Positions 53,119-62,477 of a stretch of DNA of 64,000 bases are shown in pieces. This DNA comes from Gammaproteobacteria bacterium (lineage in GTDB: Bacteria > Pseudomonadota > Gammaproteobacteria > Pseudomonadales > Halieaceae). The stretch lies in assembly GCA_024742415.1 (NCBI GenBank), contig JANSYN010000014.1:1-64000 (forward strand). The letters are read 5' to 3'. How positions within the stretch are numbered: the first letter of the stretch is position 1; each line of letters starts with the position of its first letter. Below the pieces are notes generated by a model that was not told where the DNA came from, searched no databases, and saw nothing but the letters and a program-made list of their open reading frames with translations. The translations under genes were made by a program, and so were the position numbers.

Positions 53119-54018
53119 TCAACCCTGGGATTGAACAACACGGGCCTTGCTGCGGGCAATCAATTGCGCTGCCTTTTCACCCAACACGGACCGCGCCAGC
53201 CCCGCATAGCGCGGCTGCTCGATCAGGAACTGAAAACTGGTTTTTTCACCCCGGTGACAGTGCCAGTAATCAACGAAACTGCTGTTTTCTTCATTGAAGC
53301 GTGTCACCAGCGCAGCACTGGCCGCATTGGACAGCTTTTGCAGAGATTTTGCCGCTACCCCAGGCGACGATGGGGACACCTCGCGCGCGTCGACCCCGAT
53401 ATGCCGTGAGAAGAACTGCAGCGTTTGCGCCTGCGGCCACTGCGTCACTTCCTCGTACCACAATGACAGCTCGGTAACGCCTCGCTGCGCGAAAAACTGA
53501 CGCATATAGCGCTCTCCCGACACAATGTTCAGGGCAATACGCGCGATTTCGCTGGCATCATAGGGTGCATCGGGAACACCTTCGGTAGATTGGAAGGAAT
53601 GATAAATACCGGTGTGCTTGGCGCGGTACAGGGATACCGCCTGCGCAACAAAGTCTTTTCGACGCAGGGAGAACCAGGTTTGCACATCATCAAACAAATT
53701 ACCATACCCCTGGACAGACAGCGCCTCCAACTGCTTAGGGGCAACCTCAAACCCGAACACACCCTGGGTCTGGTGGTAGATCTTCAGGTACTCGTAATAG
53801 GCATAAACAGTGTCGCTGCGGCTCTGTCGTATGGCTTAGTCGGCGGCTTGCTGGTTGAAGAATTCCTTTGGATCACCTAGAAACCCGGATGAATGCAGAA
53901 GTTCTCCAAGCCAGGTACTACCAGAGCGCGGCGTAAACACGATGCCGTAGCGCTGTGAGGCCGCATCGATACGCAGGGAGGCAAACAATTCAGACCAGGG
54001 TTTGGGTTTGGACATAGA
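53119..54018 (-). pseudogene. Stf0-type sulfotransferase with an in-frame stop
   Basis: Two same-frame halves of one sulfotransferase. The N-terminal part has the PAPS-binding IVFTPRSGSTWLGELLHSSG and ends at FFNQQAAD followed by TAA (53836-53838). The frame then continues intact through AIRQSRSDTVYAYYEYLK to the C-terminal half (VFGFEVAPKQLE, RKDFVAQAVSLYRAKHT). The 24 codons between the stop and the next possible start are clean and family-like, so only the TAA separates the halves. A single C-to-T change from CAA would explain it. The start near 54018 is uncertain and lacks a ribosome site. Confidence 0.8.
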
Positions 54019-54161
54019 TCGAACCAGCAATTCATCGAACAGCCCGTACAGGCCGGTTGTGTCACGCCAGGCTGGGGCGCGAGCCAGCGCTGCCGCGTTG
54101 AGACTGCTCAGCACTGCTCGGCAATACGTCCAGCACAGCCTCCCGGCGGTTCTCCTTGTAC

Positions 54162-54178
54162 TGTGACGTGTTGTCACA
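54162..54178. promoter_or_regulatory. TGTGAC/GTCACA inverted repeat upstream of the sulfotransferase
   Basis: TGTGAC (54162-54167) and GTCACA (54173-54178) form a 6-bp inverted repeat around five bases. The arms resemble a CRP half-site, but the TGTGA-TCACA spacing is seven rather than six. It lies about 145 bases before the sulfotransferase start, so it may be an operator. Confidence 0.3.
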
Positions 54179-54293
54179 ACGTGTCTCAGTGATCGGGGAA
54201 GAACGGCCGTGTACTTTTTAAGGCAACTCACTCCACAGGCTTTAGTTTAGGGCGTTGCGGGTTGCTGTCGCAAGCGCGCAGGCACCTTAATAC

Positions 54294-55299: not shown

Positions 55300-56352
55300 T
55301 CATTTTACTACGGTATTCTCTAGCATACCCAGGTGAGTGCCAAACCCCTTAACAACATCGCCCGCCCCCAGGTACGCCCAGGGTGCCCACAGTGTTACAG
55401 GTTTGAACATTACGCCACCAGGCGTGCCGGTCATGATGACCGAACCGGCGTTTATCCTGTCGCAATCAGCCAGGGTCAGTACAGCACCCGCGCTATCATA
55501 CTGATTCGCGCATTGTTGCAGGCTTTTCTTAAGGATGGTTTCAGGTGCCCAGATCATCTGGTTGGCCAGCGTACGCTGACGCAGCCGATCGTTGACGTAG
55601 AGACTCAGCTCGACTCTCTGGTGGAAATCAGTGCCACGCGGGATGACCAGCAGTGGGCCAACCGGCATGCGAGTGTCGCCGCCCTTGCCCAGTGCGAAAC
55701 CACTGCGGCCCATGGGCCCATCCAGGTCGATGTCGCGCACCAGCAGCCAGCGGTCGGTAAAATCATTGCAGAGAATGTAACCCAGTTCGATGCGCGCGCC
55801 GTCCACGTAATCGGTCAGCGGTACCACACAGAGCTCAATTTCGTAATCCAGGCGCGTACCGGCATATACACCTGCATTCCAGGCCGATGGCGCGGAAAGT
55901 TTCGGAAAGAGAAACGGCTCACCCGCGTGGCCCACCTCGCGAGCGTGTTCAGCATAGTTGGTGCCTGCGGCAATCGCGCGCTCACCGGATGGCAACGGCG
56001 CTATCAATGCCTCCCACGGCACGACCTGCATCATCGGTGCCTGCGCAAACACGCGCACAAGGTGTTCCATACCCAGTGCGCTGTAGGCCTGTACCGCGTC
56101 GTCAAAACCGCGGGAGAAATAGGCATTGAGATTCACAGCGCTGATGCCCTCTGCGTTTGCCGAGGTTACCAGCAGCACGGCGCCATCCTGCGTCTGGGCC
56201 AGGGTCACCGCACGGCTTATTGGTGCAATCGCCAGCGCAGTCGATGGTACAGCGGTGAGTCTCTCATCAAAGATAGGCCTGGACAAATACACGCTGGCAG
56301 CAACAATCAACGCCAGCACTAGCGCAAGGCTCGCGATCACGAATCTGGACAT
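55300..56352 (-). CDS. Membrane-anchored fumarylacetoacetate hydrolase-family protein
   Basis: A 350-residue protein. Residues 5-23 form a hydrophobic anchor or uncleaved signal (SLALVLALIVAASVYL). The FAH fold covers about 100-345: YAEHAREVGHAGEPFLFPKL, DYEIELCVV (metal-binding Glu-x-Glu) and CNDFTDRWLL (metal Asp), and VIMTGTPGGVMF near the C-terminus. FAH enzymes cleave C-C bonds or isomerise beta-diketo acids. Most are cytoplasmic, so the N-terminal anchor is unusual and implies a periplasmic or membrane-bound role. GGGAGA precedes the ATG. Confidence 0.87.
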   Translation of the reverse strand: MSRFVIASLALVLALIVAASVYLSRPIFDERLTAVPSTALAIAPISRAVTLAQTQDGAVLLVTSANAEGISAVNLNAYFSRGFDDAVQAYSALGMEHLVRVFAQAPMMQVVPWEALIAPLPSGERAIAAGTNYAEHAREVGHAGEPFLFPKLSAPSAWNAGVYAGTRLDYEIELCVVPLTDYVDGARIELGYILCNDFTDRWLLVRDIDLDGPMGRSGFALGKGGDTRMPVGPLLVIPRGTDFHQRVELSLYVNDRLRQRTLANQMIWAPETILKKSLQQCANQYDSAGAVLTLADCDRINAGSVIMTGTPGGVMFKPVTLWAPWAYLGAGDVVKGFGTHLGMLENTVVK

Positions 56353-56583
56353 ACCGATCTCCCTAGTACCATCAATGTTTCACCATGCCGCATACGCAGC
56401 AGAAATGCCATCGCGTCCGCCCTGCGCATGCGTGTGCAACCCCTTAGCCAGGCGTGGCATGCGAAGTTTGGCAGCGCTGCGGCGCTGCTTTACACTGGCG
56501 CTTCGCGAAGCGACGACACCCGCGAGCGTGCCGCGTTTCCCCGGGGCTGCCGCCCGCTGACCACAGGCAAGGCCTGCATACCT

Positions 56584-57249
56584 ATGCTAAATGAACAGCA
56601 GATACGATATTTCCACAGTTTTGGCTACCTCCTGCTGGAGGGCTTGCTGGCAGAAGATGTCAGCGATATCAGCGCCGCCTTTGACGCGGTCATGCAAGAC
56701 CCGGACAACGGCGCAACGCAGCTGGATTACGCCAACGGTGACCGCCTCATGGTGCCGGCGATCGCCGAACACCACCCCGTGTTACGTGCGCTGAAGAGTG
56801 ACCCACGGATCACGAGCATCCCCGACAGCTTGATCGGCAGTCAATGGGAATACGCCGAGAGTTCGGGCGACGTTATGGACTGCGAAACCACGTGGCATCG
56901 CGACGTCTACCACTCGCCGCTGACACAATTTCACATCAAGCTGCTGATGTACCTCGACCCACTTACCGCCTCCACCGGCGCGCTGCGCGTCCTGCCAGGC
57001 ACTCACTACTATCAGGATCGCTACGTGAAAGACGTGCTCTCAGGCCAGGGTTTTCCAGATCGCATGGAAGAGGTCTTCGGTGTCGCCGCGCATCAACTGC
57101 CCGGCGTTCCCATAGCCACTACGCCAGGTGATGTTATTGTCTTGAATTTCCGCACAGTGCACGCCAGCTTTTGCGGCGCAGGCACCCGGCGCCTGCTGAA
57201 CATGAATTATCGGGAACCGGCCAGCAGCGGCGCTGAACAGGCAAACTGA
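56584..57249 (+). CDS. Phytanoyl-CoA dioxygenase (PhyH) family protein
   Basis: A 221-residue Fe(II)/2-oxoglutarate oxygenase. TWHRDVYHS contains the His-x-Asp of the iron triad, and VLNFRTVHASFCGAGTRRLLNMNY supplies the distal His and the 2-oxoglutarate Arg. RYFHSFGYLLLEGLLAED is the usual start. It hydroxylates a lipid-like or small substrate with O2. The ATG at 56584 matches the family start; a 52-residue longer frame is not credible. It diverges from the FAH-like gene. Confidence 0.92.
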   Translation: MLNEQQIRYFHSFGYLLLEGLLAEDVSDISAAFDAVMQDPDNGATQLDYANGDRLMVPAIAEHHPVLRALKSDPRITSIPDSLIGSQWEYAESSGDVMDCETTWHRDVYHSPLTQFHIKLLMYLDPLTASTGALRVLPGTHYYQDRYVKDVLSGQGFPDRMEEVFGVAAHQLPGVPIATTPGDVIVLNFRTVHASFCGAGTRRLLNMNYREPASSGAEQAN

Positions 57250-57309: not shown

Positions 57310-57828
57310 CTACCTGGCCGTTTGCCGAGCGACTTTCTTAAGCTTGGCCCTGGACGGTTTGTCGCCGTTATCCGCCGCACGCTGCAACCAGTAAGCATAG
57401 GCTTGCGCGTCGCGCTCAACACCGTGCCCTGCGTAGTACATTTTGGATAACAGTATCTGTGCCTTGAGATGATCCTCGCGCGCGGCCGGCTCAAGCAGAC
57501 GGAATGCGCGCTCGTAATCGCCGCGCATAAACGCCCGCACACCCAACTGTGCATCGGTTGCCGTCGGCACCCGGTGGGCCTCTGGCTCTGTTGTGCGCAA
57601 CTGTGCGGTAGACTCTGCCGCTGCCTCGACATCGCCCCGAGTCGTTGCGACGCCCTTGTTTTTGGCCCTCGCCAGTTGTTGGCTGGTACAGGCGCCTGTT
57701 GCTGCCTCGGCGGTATCGTCAGCGCGCGCCTGCGTGGTGCGGTCGTCGCGATGGCGCAGGAAATACACACCCACCAGCAGCAGCGCCAATCCCGACACTA
57801 AAATTGCTACCAGCATCGCCGCCGGCAT
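57310..57828 (-). CDS. Sel1-like repeat membrane protein
   Basis: A 172-residue protein with one N-terminal membrane segment (AMLVAILVSGLALLLVGVYFL), a charged linker of about 60 residues, and a C-terminal Sel1/TPR region (GVRAFMRGDYERAFRLLEPA, HLKAQILLSKMYYAGHGVERDAQAYAYWLQRAADNGD). Sel1 repeats bind proteins. The ATG overlaps the radical-SAM stop by one base (TGATG), so the two genes are coupled. It is probably a membrane-anchored partner or scaffold; function unknown. Confidence 0.85.
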   Translation of the reverse strand: MPAAMLVAILVSGLALLLVGVYFLRHRDDRTTQARADDTAEAATGACTSQQLARAKNKGVATTRGDVEAAAESTAQLRTTEPEAHRVPTATDAQLGVRAFMRGDYERAFRLLEPAAREDHLKAQILLSKMYYAGHGVERDAQAYAYWLQRAADNGDKPSRAKLKKVARQTAR

Positions 57829-58823
57829 CACGGTGCATCACTGGCCAGGATAAACGGCGGGAACTTCTGCTGGCGTTCTTGCAGCTCTGCGATCTTCTTT
57901 GGCAGACTGTCTGCGGACGCTTCGCCCGCTTCGATTTCAAACAGCACTTCGCGCACCACGTTGGTGGTATCGAGGTCGCAATCCTTGCACGCCGGCGGCG
58001 CCACCTCCTGAAAAAAGGCGGCCTTTTTGATCACATCCATCTCTTCGATGCTGTAGTCAAACACCGAGCCCAGGGGACTGAGTTTGCGATAATCGTTGCA
58101 GCACAAATAGTACTGGCCATTCCAGCCAACAAAAAGCATGACAAAGGGCACCAGGCAGACATGGCTCAGGGCGTTGTCCTGCAGTATCTGCTGTGCCTGC
58201 GCCGCGTGACGGTCATTGCCGACAAAGTACAGGCCTATATCGCAGGCACCGCCCCGATTGGTTTGCTCGAAATGGCAGAACTCATCGATACCCGCCTCAG
58301 ACCAGAACGCCTGGTAGTGCTCCAGTTTCTCGCGATTGAGATCGTGCGCAACGAGACTGACCTGCGTGCGCACCGGTTTGCCCGCGGCATCATTCATATC
58401 CAGAAAGCGCAGAATATTGGCGCGGGTTTCGTCAAAGCTCAGCGCATAGACTTCTTCGTAGTCATCGCCGAGGTCGCTGATGCTGAAACAGATATGATCA
58501 ACGGTTGAGTCCAGCACCGCCCTTGCCAGGTCTTCGCTGAGCAGGGAACCATTGGTGGTGAAGCCGTAGTCGAGTTTGAACTCGGCAACTATCTGCAAGA
58601 TCTCGCGGAACTGCGGGTGCAGCGTTGGCTCACCCTGCCCCGCAGAATGGATCTTGGGGGTGACCTCCAGCGCCGACGCGCGCTCCAGCGCCTTGCGAAA
58701 CGCCTCCAGCGTGATAAACCCCTGATCTGGTGTCTGGTCGCGCGGGCAAAACGTGCACTGGGCGTTACACCGGTTGGTGAGCTCAATGTCGAGATTGCGC
58801 ATACCTTGCTTGAATCTTGCCAT
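57828..58823 (-). CDS. Radical SAM/SPASM-domain protein
   Basis: A 331-residue protein. The radical-SAM cluster site is Cys19-x3-Cys23-x2-Cys26 in ELTNRCNAQCTFCPRD. HSAGQGEPTLHP and GFTTNGSLL follow as in the fold. The C-terminal SPASM region (about 225-300) has LCCNDYRKLSPLGSVF and PACKDCDLDTT, with Cys enough for an auxiliary Fe-S cluster. SPASM enzymes modify peptides or proteins, including anaerobic sulfatase maturases. The lipoprotein sulfatase gene lies 166 bases upstream on the same strand, so maturation of that sulfatase is a possible role, but the protein is shorter than known maturases. Confidence 0.9.
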   Translation of the reverse strand: MARFKQGMRNLDIELTNRCNAQCTFCPRDQTPDQGFITLEAFRKALERASALEVTPKIHSAGQGEPTLHPQFREILQIVAEFKLDYGFTTNGSLLSEDLARAVLDSTVDHICFSISDLGDDYEEVYALSFDETRANILRFLDMNDAAGKPVRTQVSLVAHDLNREKLEHYQAFWSEAGIDEFCHFEQTNRGGACDIGLYFVGNDRHAAQAQQILQDNALSHVCLVPFVMLFVGWNGQYYLCCNDYRKLSPLGSVFDYSIEEMDVIKKAAFFQEVAPPACKDCDLDTTNVVREVLFEIEAGEASADSLPKKIAELQERQQKFPPFILASDAP

Positions 58824-58989
58824 AGGATGGTTCTGGATTGCCCCGTAACTGTCAGAGGGCGCCCCAGCTGGCGCGCCGCAGATTTACAGGCCCTAGTTAA
58901 CGGGCAGCGTGTGTTTATGTCAATGCGGATCGCGCGCGACGCCCACCGTCAGGCTAACAACAGGTATCGGGCAAGGCGTTGCTCGGCCG

Positions 58990-60927
58990 CTACAGAACGT
59001 TGCCGGCGCCCGCCGTTTGCCGCGCTTGCACTGCTGGGCCGCACAGGCTTGGCAGGTCGGCCACCGCATTGCGCAGAAGCCCACCGGGCGGATCGTCAGT
59101 CAACCGCTCGCTCAATACCAGGGGGCGGCTGAGCGTGCCCGTAAACACACCTGCTGCTGTAGCGTCCTGGCCCAGGAACGTTGGGTGCTCGTAGCCCTGC
59201 AGCATGATGGCAGGGGCATTGGAGTGTCGCGACTGTTGCAGTTGTCCGTTCACGTAGATTTCAACACTGGACCAGTTGGTCGCAGGCTGGATCGGTGAGA
59301 GCGCATGGTGGGTAGTAATGACCAGCTCGGAGCAGCGACCGGAGGGCAGCGGCGGCAGGATCATCAGCTCACCCAGTACGCCAACCACCAGGTTATCGGC
59401 ACTGGAGTAAACACCCCAGCGATCCTGTTGATAGACCAGCGTCTGCATCTGCGCTGTTTGCCGTTCGGGTGTGACTCCCAATGCCAGGGTGAACCCGCGG
59501 TAGCCGGGGCTGCGCAGGTAGTCACTGCCGGTCAGTCGTGCTGCCCCCGACTCGCCCAGCACCTGGTAGTCCAGCGGAACCTTGCGCTGCGCCAGGCGCC
59601 ACTGGCGCAGCTGTTCCAGTAACGACGTGGCAACCTCGGGGTGATCAGCGATGACATTGGTCGCCCCGGTCGGATCCGCTTCCAGATCGTTGAGGGTGGG
59701 CGTCAGCCAAAGGCCCTGTGTGTAGCGCCAGCGTCCATCAACAGAAAGGACAGAAATCTTGAAGGTCCTTGAATCGGAATACTCCCACAGCAACTGTGGG
59801 CTCGGTGGCAATGGTTCGCTTCGCAGGTCGCGGCCGATGGCAGACTCAGGTATCGCTGCACCTGCCGCGCGCGCTATCGTCGGCAATACATCATACAGGC
59901 TCACGATGTCGTTGATCGTCGCTCCCGCGTGCGCCCGGTCCGGCCAGCGGATCAGCAATGGTGTGCGTACGCCACCTTCAAAAAACTCCGTCTTGCGGCC
60001 GTGGTATGGCGCATTACTGTCGGCGAACCGTGCTGTCCCGCCATTGTCGCTGAGAATGATCACCAGCGTATTGGCGGCCTGGCCAGTGTCCTGCAGCGCC
60101 CGCAACACCCTGCCCACGCTGTCGTCCAACTGCTCGATCAACGCCTGGTACTTGCCTTTACCATTATTTTCATACTTGCGCGCGAAACGCGGTGCGGGCT
60201 GAATCGGGCTGTGCGGCGCAAAGTACCAAAGGTTAAGGAACCACGGGGAGCCCGTCGCGCGCTGGTCATTGAGATAGGTTACCGCACTGTCGGTGATGAT
60301 ATCTGTCAGGTGACCCTTGTACTTTGTCGGTGGTAAATCGTTCAATCGCAGGTGCGGGTCGCGATAGGTAGGTGCGCCAAAATTGATGCCATCCGTTGTG
60401 GCGCCATCGAGTTCATGCTGCAGCAAAAAGCCAAACCACTGGTCAAAGCCTGCATGCAGTGGCGACTGTTCTGGCGTCGCATTGCCCACATGCCACTTAC
60501 CGATGTGCTGCGTGCTGTAACCGGCATCGCGCAGAACCGTTGCAATCGTGGTGGTACCAGGGCTCAAACCCAGGTGTGTCGGGCGAAAGCCAAACCGCGC
60601 CGGGTACTGGCCGGTCAGCAGCGCTGCTCGCGCAACAGAGCATGAGGCGTCAGCGTAATGCCGCGTATAGTGCACGCCCTGGGCAGCAAAGCGCGCCAGG
60701 TTAGGCGTGGGTGAATCGACAGCACCTGCTGCGCCCAGGTCATTGACCCCGAAATCATCCAGCACAATCAGCAGCACGTTAGGCTTTGTCTTGCCGTTTG
60801 TGACAGGCTCGTCAGTCTTTTGACTGCAGGCTGCAAGCATTGTCAGTAATGCGCAAACAAGTGCAATACCGCGCAGCCCGGCGCGAAAGCGGCTACTGCT
60901 ATCGACTGTGCCGGGGCTGAAGCCCAT
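58990..60927 (-). CDS. Lipoprotein sulfatase with C-terminal LamG-like domain
   Basis: A 645-residue type I sulfatase family protein anchored by a lipobox (LAAC, Cys34). VLLIVLDDFG holds metal Asp residues. The active-site signature is C96-S97-V98-A99-R100 followed by AALLTGQYPARFG; the usual third residue is Pro or Ala. The formylglycine Cys and Arg are kept. About residues 480-640 form a concanavalin-type LamG domain (VEIYVNGQLQQ, LGQDATAAGVFTGTLSRP). It should remove sulfate from a glycan or sterol ester in the periplasm or at the surface. AGGAG lies in the end of the ligase gene, five bases before the ATG. Confidence 0.92.
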   Translation of the reverse strand: MGFSPGTVDSSSRFRAGLRGIALVCALLTMLAACSQKTDEPVTNGKTKPNVLLIVLDDFGVNDLGAAGAVDSPTPNLARFAAQGVHYTRHYADASCSVARAALLTGQYPARFGFRPTHLGLSPGTTTIATVLRDAGYSTQHIGKWHVGNATPEQSPLHAGFDQWFGFLLQHELDGATTDGINFGAPTYRDPHLRLNDLPPTKYKGHLTDIITDSAVTYLNDQRATGSPWFLNLWYFAPHSPIQPAPRFARKYENNGKGKYQALIEQLDDSVGRVLRALQDTGQAANTLVIILSDNGGTARFADSNAPYHGRKTEFFEGGVRTPLLIRWPDRAHAGATINDIVSLYDVLPTIARAAGAAIPESAIGRDLRSEPLPPSPQLLWEYSDSRTFKISVLSVDGRWRYTQGLWLTPTLNDLEADPTGATNVIADHPEVATSLLEQLRQWRLAQRKVPLDYQVLGESGAARLTGSDYLRSPGYRGFTLALGVTPERQTAQMQTLVYQQDRWGVYSSADNLVVGVLGELMILPPLPSGRCSELVITTHHALSPIQPATNWSSVEIYVNGQLQQSRHSNAPAIMLQGYEHPTFLGQDATAAGVFTGTLSRPLVLSERLTDDPPGGLLRNAVADLPSLCGPAVQARQTAGAGNVL

Positions 60928-60929
60928 TG

Positions 60930-62477
60930 TCACTCCTGATCCACCCCGCTGTCGGCATCCAACACAAAACCCTCACGGACAACGCGACGCAGTAACTTGC
61001 CGGTTTCGTTATACGGCAGCGATTGCTCAAATCGGATATGTTGCGGCACTTTTGAGGAGCGCAATGTTGCCTTGACCAGATCCTTCAGCTCTTGCTTCAG
61101 CGACTGCTGCAGGTGCGCATCGATCGCATCGGCATCGTGCAGAACCACCACCGCCGCCACGGCCTCGCCCCAGTGCTCGTCGGGAACACCGATGACGGCC
61201 ACATCGGCAACGGCCGCATGTGTCAACAGCGCGTCTTCGATCTCTCCGGGAGACATGTTCTCTGCGCCGCGCACAATAACGTCATCTGCCCGCCCTGCAA
61301 GAAAAAGGTAGCCTTCTTCGTCAAGTTCGCCCGCATCGCGCGTGGCAAACCAGCCGTTGGCATCGAGCATACTGCCCTTGCCAACGTACTCGCCTGAGAC
61401 TTGCTCACCGCGCACGTATATCTCGCCGCGCTGCCCGGGCGCAAGTACCTTGCCGCTGTCGTCGCGAATCTGGATTTCCACACCCGGCAGGGGCAGGCCA
61501 ACGGAGGTCATACGCCGTCGCTGCGCGGGCTCCGTGCTTTCCATCGCAGCGCGGTGATGCCTGGGCAGCAGCACGCACAGTGTTGAACTGGTCTCGGTCA
61601 AGCCATAGGCCTGGGTAAACTCTACCTCGGGTAGCAATGCCATTGCCGCCTCGATTACCGGCCCCGGCATCTTGCCACCGCCGTAGGCCAGTGCACGCAG
61701 GTGCGGCAATTCAGGCCGCCCGAGCAGTTCCAGTTCAGCCACAATGGCGCGCAGCATCGTAGGCACCAGGAACGCCGTGGTGACCCGTTCCTGCTGCGCA
61801 AGTTCTATCCAGCGCCGTGCGTTGAAATTCGGCAGCTGCACAACCTTGCGCCCTGCATACACCGCGCTGATCACTGAGACGATCCCGGCAATATGGTAAG
61901 GCGGCACGGCCACCAGCAGTACTTCTTCCTCTGCCGCTGACCCAAACTCCACGGCAGAATGCATGTACGACACCAGGTGTCGCTGGCGCAGCACCGCCGC
62001 CTTGGGCGCGCCTGTCGTTCCGCTGGTAAACAGCAGTACCGCTGTGGCCTCTGGGTCCATGTCCCAGTCTGCTTCGTGAGCGTGTGACTGCGCGCGTGCC
62101 TGGGCAATAAAGCTGTCACGGTTTATGCATTCCACTGCAGGATGCGTTGCCAGCTGTCGCGCCCACTCATTGTCGGTAATCAGGCGGGCGGGCGCTATGC
62201 GCTCCAACAGTGCGTTGATCTCGCCGTCGGAGAGCCGATAGTTTATTGGCACGAACGGCCTGCCGGCCCAGGCGCTGGCAAACAGACCGATGGGTAGCGC
62301 GAAGCTGCTGACATCCAGCATCGCCAGGTGCGCGCTGTCACTCTTTTGCAACTGCGCGGCGGCGGTGCCTGCGGCCTGCAGTAACTCGGTATAGGTGATG
62401 CTGTCCTGACCATTGCAGAACGCCGTGCGCTGCCCAAATGCACCGGCTGCGCTTGCAAGCAAGCTCATCAGATTCAT
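60930..62477 (-). CDS. AMP-dependent acyl-CoA synthetase/ligase
   Basis: A 515-residue adenylate-forming enzyme. VLLFTSGTTGAPKAAVLRQ is the P-loop core motif. AYGLTETSSTLC, GEIYVRGEQVSGEY, and FLAGRADDVIVRGAENMSPGEIE, with the distal Lys in NETGKLLRRVV, complete the family. It activates a carboxylic acid, most likely a fatty or side-chain acid, to the CoA ester. AAGGA lies eight bases before the ATG. The sulfatase gene begins two bases after its stop with the ribosome site inside this gene, so the two proteins are made together. Confidence 0.94.
   Translation of the reverse strand: MNLMSLLASAAGAFGQRTAFCNGQDSITYTELLQAAGTAAAQLQKSDSAHLAMLDVSSFALPIGLFASAWAGRPFVPINYRLSDGEINALLERIAPARLITDNEWARQLATHPAVECINRDSFIAQARAQSHAHEADWDMDPEATAVLLFTSGTTGAPKAAVLRQRHLVSYMHSAVEFGSAAEEEVLLVAVPPYHIAGIVSVISAVYAGRKVVQLPNFNARRWIELAQQERVTTAFLVPTMLRAIVAELELLGRPELPHLRALAYGGGKMPGPVIEAAMALLPEVEFTQAYGLTETSSTLCVLLPRHHRAAMESTEPAQRRRMTSVGLPLPGVEIQIRDDSGKVLAPGQRGEIYVRGEQVSGEYVGKGSMLDANGWFATRDAGELDEEGYLFLAGRADDVIVRGAENMSPGEIEDALLTHAAVADVAVIGVPDEHWGEAVAAVVVLHDADAIDAHLQQSLKQELKDLVKATLRSSKVPQHIRFEQSLPYNETGKLLRRVVREGFVLDADSGVDQE

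Follow-up and report, generated by a model that had tools for sequence, protein, structure and literature searches.

The 64,000-nucleotide stretch analyzed here (the window) comprises positions 1 to 64,000 of contig JANSYN010000014.1 from a gammaproteobacterium of the Halieaceae (GCA_024742415.1). Between positions 57310 and 62477 it carries four minus-strand genes, for an acyl-CoA ligase, a type I sulfatase, a radical SAM (rSAM) protein and a Sel1 protein, which a preliminary description made from the letters alone had taken for one operon that might act on a sulfated sterol or lipid and supply its own sulfatase maturase. The places, order and families of the four genes were confirmed, with above-cut-off Pfam matches to AMP-binding (ligase), Sulfatase, Radical_SAM together with SPASM (rSAM protein) and Sel1. 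The region is most likely a composite neighborhood whose pieces have different histories, and not one pathway. On balance we lean toward a reading in which the rSAM protein, a PhyH-type dioxygenase encoded nearby and the Sel1 protein form a tailoring module, with the sulfatase as a recruited partner and the ligase as a neighbor; a dedicated maturase role of the rSAM protein is unlikely.

Neighbors of the radical SAM gene in related genomes

The rSAM gene (57828..58823, minus strand) encodes 331 residues with PF04055 and PF13186 above cut-off and a twitch-type C-terminal domain. Matches to the protein were found in 13 of 57 genomes at E ≤ 1e-20 (own genome included; genomes and loci are labeled G and L below), in 10 of 390 genomes of the order at E ≤ 1e-50 and, class-wide at E ≤ 1e-50, in one of 369 genomes, namely its own. 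A tree of 35 rSAM proteins is split by a branch (100/98) into type 1, the kind found in the window, with 12 loci, and type 2, with 12 loci and 17 proteins, six ungrouped rows being left uncounted. Five loci outside both types (L054, L055, L114-L116) are not in the main counts; at one of the five, L055, a sulfatase of a different kind lies within 1.5 kb. The G328 protein (L109), which matches only from model position 29, after the CX3CX2C motif, and may come from an incomplete copy, was counted nonetheless.

The PhyH-type Fe/2-oxoglutarate dioxygenase gene of the window (56584..57249, plus strand) is convergent with the Sel1 gene; its open reading frame begins at 56428, with the likely Met at 56584, and the protein has an HRD motif and a PF05721 match of 49 bits. 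At the 12 type-1 loci PhyH lies within 1.5 kb of the rSAM gene in eight and Sel1 within the same distance in seven; a sulfatase of the window family is found within 1.5 kb in three (the window and two Seongchinamella) and within 7 kb in four, and a window-type ligase within 3 kb only in the window itself (1/12), so that the four-gene set is not kept among these relatives. Half of the loci (6/12) combine rSAM and PhyH genes with no sulfatase of the window family within 7 kb. These neighbor counts are lower bounds, since the contigs of L111, L112 and L113 end close to the rSAM gene. In G052, G152 and G125 PhyH directly follows the rSAM gene in the same direction, with 57-114 bases between them by alignment, and the stretch has no window-family sulfatase, another kind lying 2.4 kb off in G152. 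The rSAM and sulfatase frames of Seongchinamella unica overlap by one base, and the rSAM, sulfatase and Sel1 proteins of G291 are identical to those of this species.

Type-2 loci have FkbM, SnoaL and a sulfotransferase-like gene within 3 kb of the rSAM gene in all 12 cases, a related sulfatase within 1.5 kb in nine, an aldolase/SDR gene within 3 kb in nine, and PhyH within 7 kb in 11. The conserved rSAM-sulfatase neighborhood that the preliminary description proposed to look for in other genomes does recur, at 3/12 type-1 and 9/12 type-2 loci within 1.5 kb.

The type-2 cluster (L049:4537-14749, with kin at L047, L050-L053, L057, L058 and L117-L120) is an uncharacterized cluster of the same genus that contains PhyH, one or more FkbM methyltransferases, a sulfatase, rSAM, SnoaL, a sulfotransferase-like gene and aldolase/SDR, with a second rSAM gene in 5/12 loci. 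The product of the sulfotransferase-like gene, which we take to be such an enzyme in part from its motifs, matches heparan sulfate 6-O-sulfotransferase weakly (E = 0.015) and has no match in Pfam or NCBIfam; the corresponding stretch of L109 was left out of one family scan. Another sulfotransferase-like gene, with no significant match in PDB, adjoins the sulfatase of Seongchinamella, and in G052 a sulfotransferase gene above the Pfam cut-off directly adjoins a related sulfatase that has no window-type rSAM gene. No paper combining radical SAM, phytanoyl-CoA dioxygenase, sulfatase and sulfotransferase was found in one literature collection.

Histories of the sulfatase and the ligase

The sulfatase gene (58990..60933, minus strand; PF00884, 189 bits) encodes a predicted surface lipoprotein, as had been claimed, with the lipobox LAAC. 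The catalytic residues C98 and R102 are invariant in 10 aligned rows, and PF00884 together with the Cys/Ser and Arg places the protein among type I sulfatases; the closest PDB sequence is the exo-4S-kappa-carrageenan sulfatase 6prm (E = 1.3e-50). The LamG-like domain of the preliminary description fell short of the Pfam cut-off (17.7 vs 27.6 bits) and reappears in searches with a low-confidence model of the C-terminal domain (pLDDT 54), which give concanavalin-A-like folds with CBM40 first and LamG lower; as modeled, the domain is probably a concanavalin-A-like glycan-binding fold.

A search with this domain gave 30 matches in 19 of the 57 genomes. Twelve of these sulfatases stand at rSAM loci, one assigned through an rSAM fragment of 21 residues where the contig ends and one (G015) at a distance of 5.8 kb; the other 18 have no window-type rSAM gene on the stretch fetched, and for five of these (L156, L158, L160, L161, L164) the contig stops no more than 0.6 kb away. 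A tree of 42 sulfatases, for which 19 further sulfatases were added and five long-branch own rows removed, places the window protein next to its G015 counterpart and joins these two to L151-L155, which have no such rSAM gene nearby (100/100). The Seongchinamella pair falls in another subclade, so that the adjacency to rSAM genes probably arose independently in the two. The linkage label needs four changes on this tree, three of them forced by starred branches; by these sequences, rSAM-sulfatase linkage is clustered, yet gained or lost several times. In the labeling, L168 and L169 (G011, G006) were set as unlinked though inside the type-2 sulfatase clade, and L167 as linked via the 21-residue piece at the contig end; L118 and L120 were left out of the sulfatase alignments. 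A 28-row tree that put the rSAM-linked members in one clade (100/98) was discarded as an artefact of missing controls.

The recognition consensus of FGE and anSME is given as (C/S)-X-(P/A)-X-R in a passage of PMC6189696. The window sulfatase has CSVAR, with Val in place of the consensus Pro/Ala at the third position. The Val signature is also found in L151-L155 (CSVAR) and in L156, L158 and L164 (CTVTR; contig ends), none with a window-type rSAM gene in view, and the odd motif therefore does not track the rSAM gene. An unrelated rSAM/SPASM gene lies about 4 kb from the sulfatase in L155.

The ligase gene (60930..62477, minus strand; 515 residues; PF00501 219 bits, PF13193 71 bits) ends with the stop TGA, followed by CA and then the sulfatase ATG, which is the two-base spacing described before; the sulfatase may start at this ATG (60927) or at a GTG (60933) that would overlap the ligase stop. 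At the other end, the rSAM stop and the Sel1 ATG share one base, again as described, and the Sel1 gene (57310..57828, minus strand) encodes from this ATG 172 residues with one Sel1 repeat (PF08238, 34.6 bits) and a single N-terminal hydrophobic stretch, in line with the membrane anchor that had been proposed. With 166 bases between sulfatase and rSAM (58824..58989), poorly conserved in two relatives, the sequence gives two tight pairs and not one demonstrated operon. A promoter scan of the gap gave no consensus match and no result above shuffles, and a comparison of the DNA upstream of the rSAM gene in three genomes gave no clear common promoter.

Close homologs of the ligase (47-71% identical) were found in 12 other genomes of the 57 at E ≤ 1e-90. 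All 11 loci examined lack a sulfatase within 1.5 kb, as checked with reference sulfatases of the window family and eight others from the genome, and the proposed coupling of ligase and sulfatase is thus not borne out. In G015 the closest ligase homolog lies roughly 20 kb away from the sulfatase, close to a thiolase and other AMP ligases, with acyl-CoA dehydrogenase genes between, and the sulfatase is adjoined by a different AMP ligase, 27% identical to that of the window. Another AMP ligase lies 3-4 kb from the homolog in G010, G008, G018 and G052; the genes between the two in G052 are P450 and luciferase-like, and a plain fatty-acid island is therefore not evident at every locus. The ligase is most likely a bystander with another history, and its tight junction with the sulfatase local to the window genome.

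Class of the radical SAM protein and activation of the sulfatases

The rSAM protein has the CX3CX2C motif (C19, C23, C26), and beyond residue 200 its only Cys are C223, C241, C242, C279 and C282. In 15 aligned rows C223, C241, C279 and C282 are invariant and C242 nearly so; the four invariant Cys have the spacing C-x17-C-x37-C-x2-C in the window protein. According to a passage of PMC9012708, a twitch domain binds a single auxiliary cluster, which in BtrN has four Cys ligands; the SPASM domain of anSME is described in a passage of PMC5682303 as having eight Cys and two auxiliary clusters. The Cys pattern of the window protein corresponds, by sequence, to the twitch type with one auxiliary cluster, and the twitch domain aligns with that of BtrN at 14-15 bits; with Cys for one cluster and not eight for two, the protein lacks a defining feature of anSME.

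A comparison with named subfamilies, which had been proposed earlier, gave no assignment to anSME. The best NCBIfam row is a tungsten-enzyme maturase model at 81 bits, where the cut-off is 380, which makes the protein a member of an unnamed subfamily, and TIGR03942 (anSME) does not appear in the top 25 of 47 NCBIfam rows. A single-sequence search of PDB gave AbmM (7.5e-5), BlsE, PqqE and BtrN (0.0036) as best rows. With a profile of 15 relatives BtrN is at the top (E = 4.9e-13; core 35-36 bits, twitch domain weakly at 14-15 bits), and no anSME chain is among 28 PDB rows at E ≤ 1. Comparison of the structural model (pLDDT 71.7) gave Z scores of 17.4 for SuiB, 16.2 for BtrN and 15.9 for anSME, and Foldseek put BtrN first and anSME twelfth. 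Fold comparison was dropped as a discriminator, since the SPASM/twitch enzymes tie in score and the fold cannot decide the class.

The window genome (99.65% complete) has 17 PF00884 matches, one of them partial, and 16 with the catalytic Cys motif. It has no match to TIGR03942 at E ≤ 0.001. Its two PF03781 proteins are one EgtB-like and one nearest PorK/GldK, the latter without Cys where human FGE has Cys; a separate FGE gene, which the preliminary description had named as counting against its maturase idea, was thus not found in this genome with a catalytic Cys. As far as sequence families tell, the genome has 16 Cys-type sulfatases, and neither known maturase (FGE, anSME) is recognized. In the PorK/GldK-like protein (L048:7216-9288, G000:C7), which has 690 residues, the FGE-like domain lacks the catalytic Cys. 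Judged by frames of 643-908 residues, 33/36 genomes of the family have a comparable PF03781 match, only some of the sequences having been read. The FGE Cys-pair pattern was found in 0/28 loci with a readable frame, a negative that had no positive control and is weak outside the own genome; the search took 31 loci, with no frame recognized in three (L042, L068, L073).

Of the 57 genomes, 19 have a TIGR03942 match of some kind and one, from another family, scores above the cut-off; 44 have no match to the rSAM protein, including G003, where a fragment lies at the end of a contig. G005, G007 and G013 (96-99% complete) are without an rSAM match despite 11, 14 and 7 PF00884 matches, and the rSAM protein therefore cannot be a general sulfatase activator. 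A passage of PMC6189696 cites a third activation system inferred in E. coli, and one of PMC10100682 gives 87 sulfatases for six Halieaceae isolates.

Competing explanations and known systems

The idea that the rSAM protein is a dedicated non-anSME maturase, converting Cys to formylglycine in the window sulfatase clade, draws on the recurrent rSAM-sulfatase adjacency with its one-base overlap in Seongchinamella unica, on the unusual CSVAR motif, and on a genome with neither an FGE bearing a catalytic Cys nor an anSME match. We rejected it as main explanation because the Cys pattern differs (five C-terminal Cys, four of which are invariant, where anSME has eight), because an anSME match is missing and because kin occur unlinked: 18 of the 30 kindred sulfatases, including the CSVAR sulfatases L151-L155 on stretches of 13-20 kb, have no rSAM gene of this family on the stretch fetched, three genomes carry sulfatases with no rSAM match at all, and 8/12 type-1 loci, three on short contigs, have no such sulfatase within 7 kb of the rSAM gene. 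We regard it as quite improbable, and more remote again is its bolder form, in which the family would be a third kind of sulfatase maturase with one auxiliary cluster, forming formylglycine only in the linked sulfatase clade of a bacterium with 16 Cys-type sulfatases and no recognized FGE or anSME. That the four genes form a unit for the breakdown of a sulfated lipid or sterol appears unlikely as well, if somewhat less so. The TGA-CA-ATG junction would fit it, as would the related sulfatase of G015, flanked by enoyl-CoA hydratase, thiolase and SDR genes and the other AMP ligase; the 11 ligase loci without an adjoining sulfatase argue against it, as do related sulfatases that in two other genomes adjoin AstE/AspA and pantothenate kinase genes or an aldehyde dehydrogenase gene. 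No evidence was found for a sulfated sterol substrate, and the C-terminal domain resembles, at low confidence, a glycan-binding fold.

Modification of a peptide or protein, either of the kind seen in ribosomally synthesized and post-translationally modified peptides or of the Sel1 protein itself, is doubtful, though the most plausible of these alternatives: the SPASM/twitch fold is shared with SuiB (highest Z), SkfB, EpeE and PqqE, and a Sel1 gene is beside the rSAM gene in 7/12 type-1 loci, but the PDB profile ranks BtrN, AbmM, NifB, BlsE and MoaA ahead of PqqE, EpeE, SkfB and SuiB, and the partner genes are PhyH, FkbM, SnoaL and sulfotransferase-like. In the tailoring module that we favor, the twitch-type rSAM protein, with one auxiliary cluster as in BtrN, and the PhyH dioxygenase would oxidize a small molecule or sugar, and the Sel1 protein may serve as their inner-membrane adaptor. 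The sulfatase would be an exported lipoprotein with a concanavalin-A-like domain and an often-recruited partner, members of its clade sitting in several settings and apparently having come beside such rSAM genes more than once; this repeated adjacency points to a modified product that can carry sulfate. It weighs against this reading that AbmM (6.8e-13, core only) practically ties with BtrN in the PDB profile search, so that the BtrN match is not exclusive.

Beyond the module, an FAH-family hydrolase gene (55300..56352, minus strand; PF01557, 78 bits) is kept beside PhyH in G015, where a 60% identical gene has the same place. A match to Stf0 sulfotransferase is divided between two reading frames (53119-53760 and 53836-54231, profile positions 115-243 and 2-36), and the gene therefore looks broken.

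The attractive case for a new sulfatase maturase is weakened by these results. What does travel as a set is an uncharacterized twitch rSAM protein with a PhyH oxygenase and, in the same genus, the well-kept paralogous cluster; how sulfatases are activated where both FGE and anSME are lacking becomes a concrete question in a genome with 16 Cys-type sulfatases. Among known systems, BtrN is the twitch radical SAM dehydrogenase of butirosin synthesis. The window rSAM protein resembles it in the CX3CX2C motif, in four Cys for one auxiliary cluster at similar spacing and in the top place in the PDB profile search, but structural alignments give only 14-19% identity, AbmM scores almost equally, and no aminocyclitol genes were noticed near the window gene. 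With anSME it has in common a radical SAM protein with a SPASM-type C-terminal domain found near sulfatases; it differs in lacking the eight-Cys, two-cluster domain, and the genome has no TIGR03942 match. The window sulfatase shares PF00884 and the catalytic Cys and Arg with the type I sulfatase 6prm and differs from sulfatases of that type in the Val for Pro/Ala in its signature, the concanavalin-A-like C-terminal domain and the lipobox. The PhyH protein has its nearest PDB sequence in SnoK, the PhyH-type oxygenase of nogalamycin synthesis, through a weak match (E = 1e-5).

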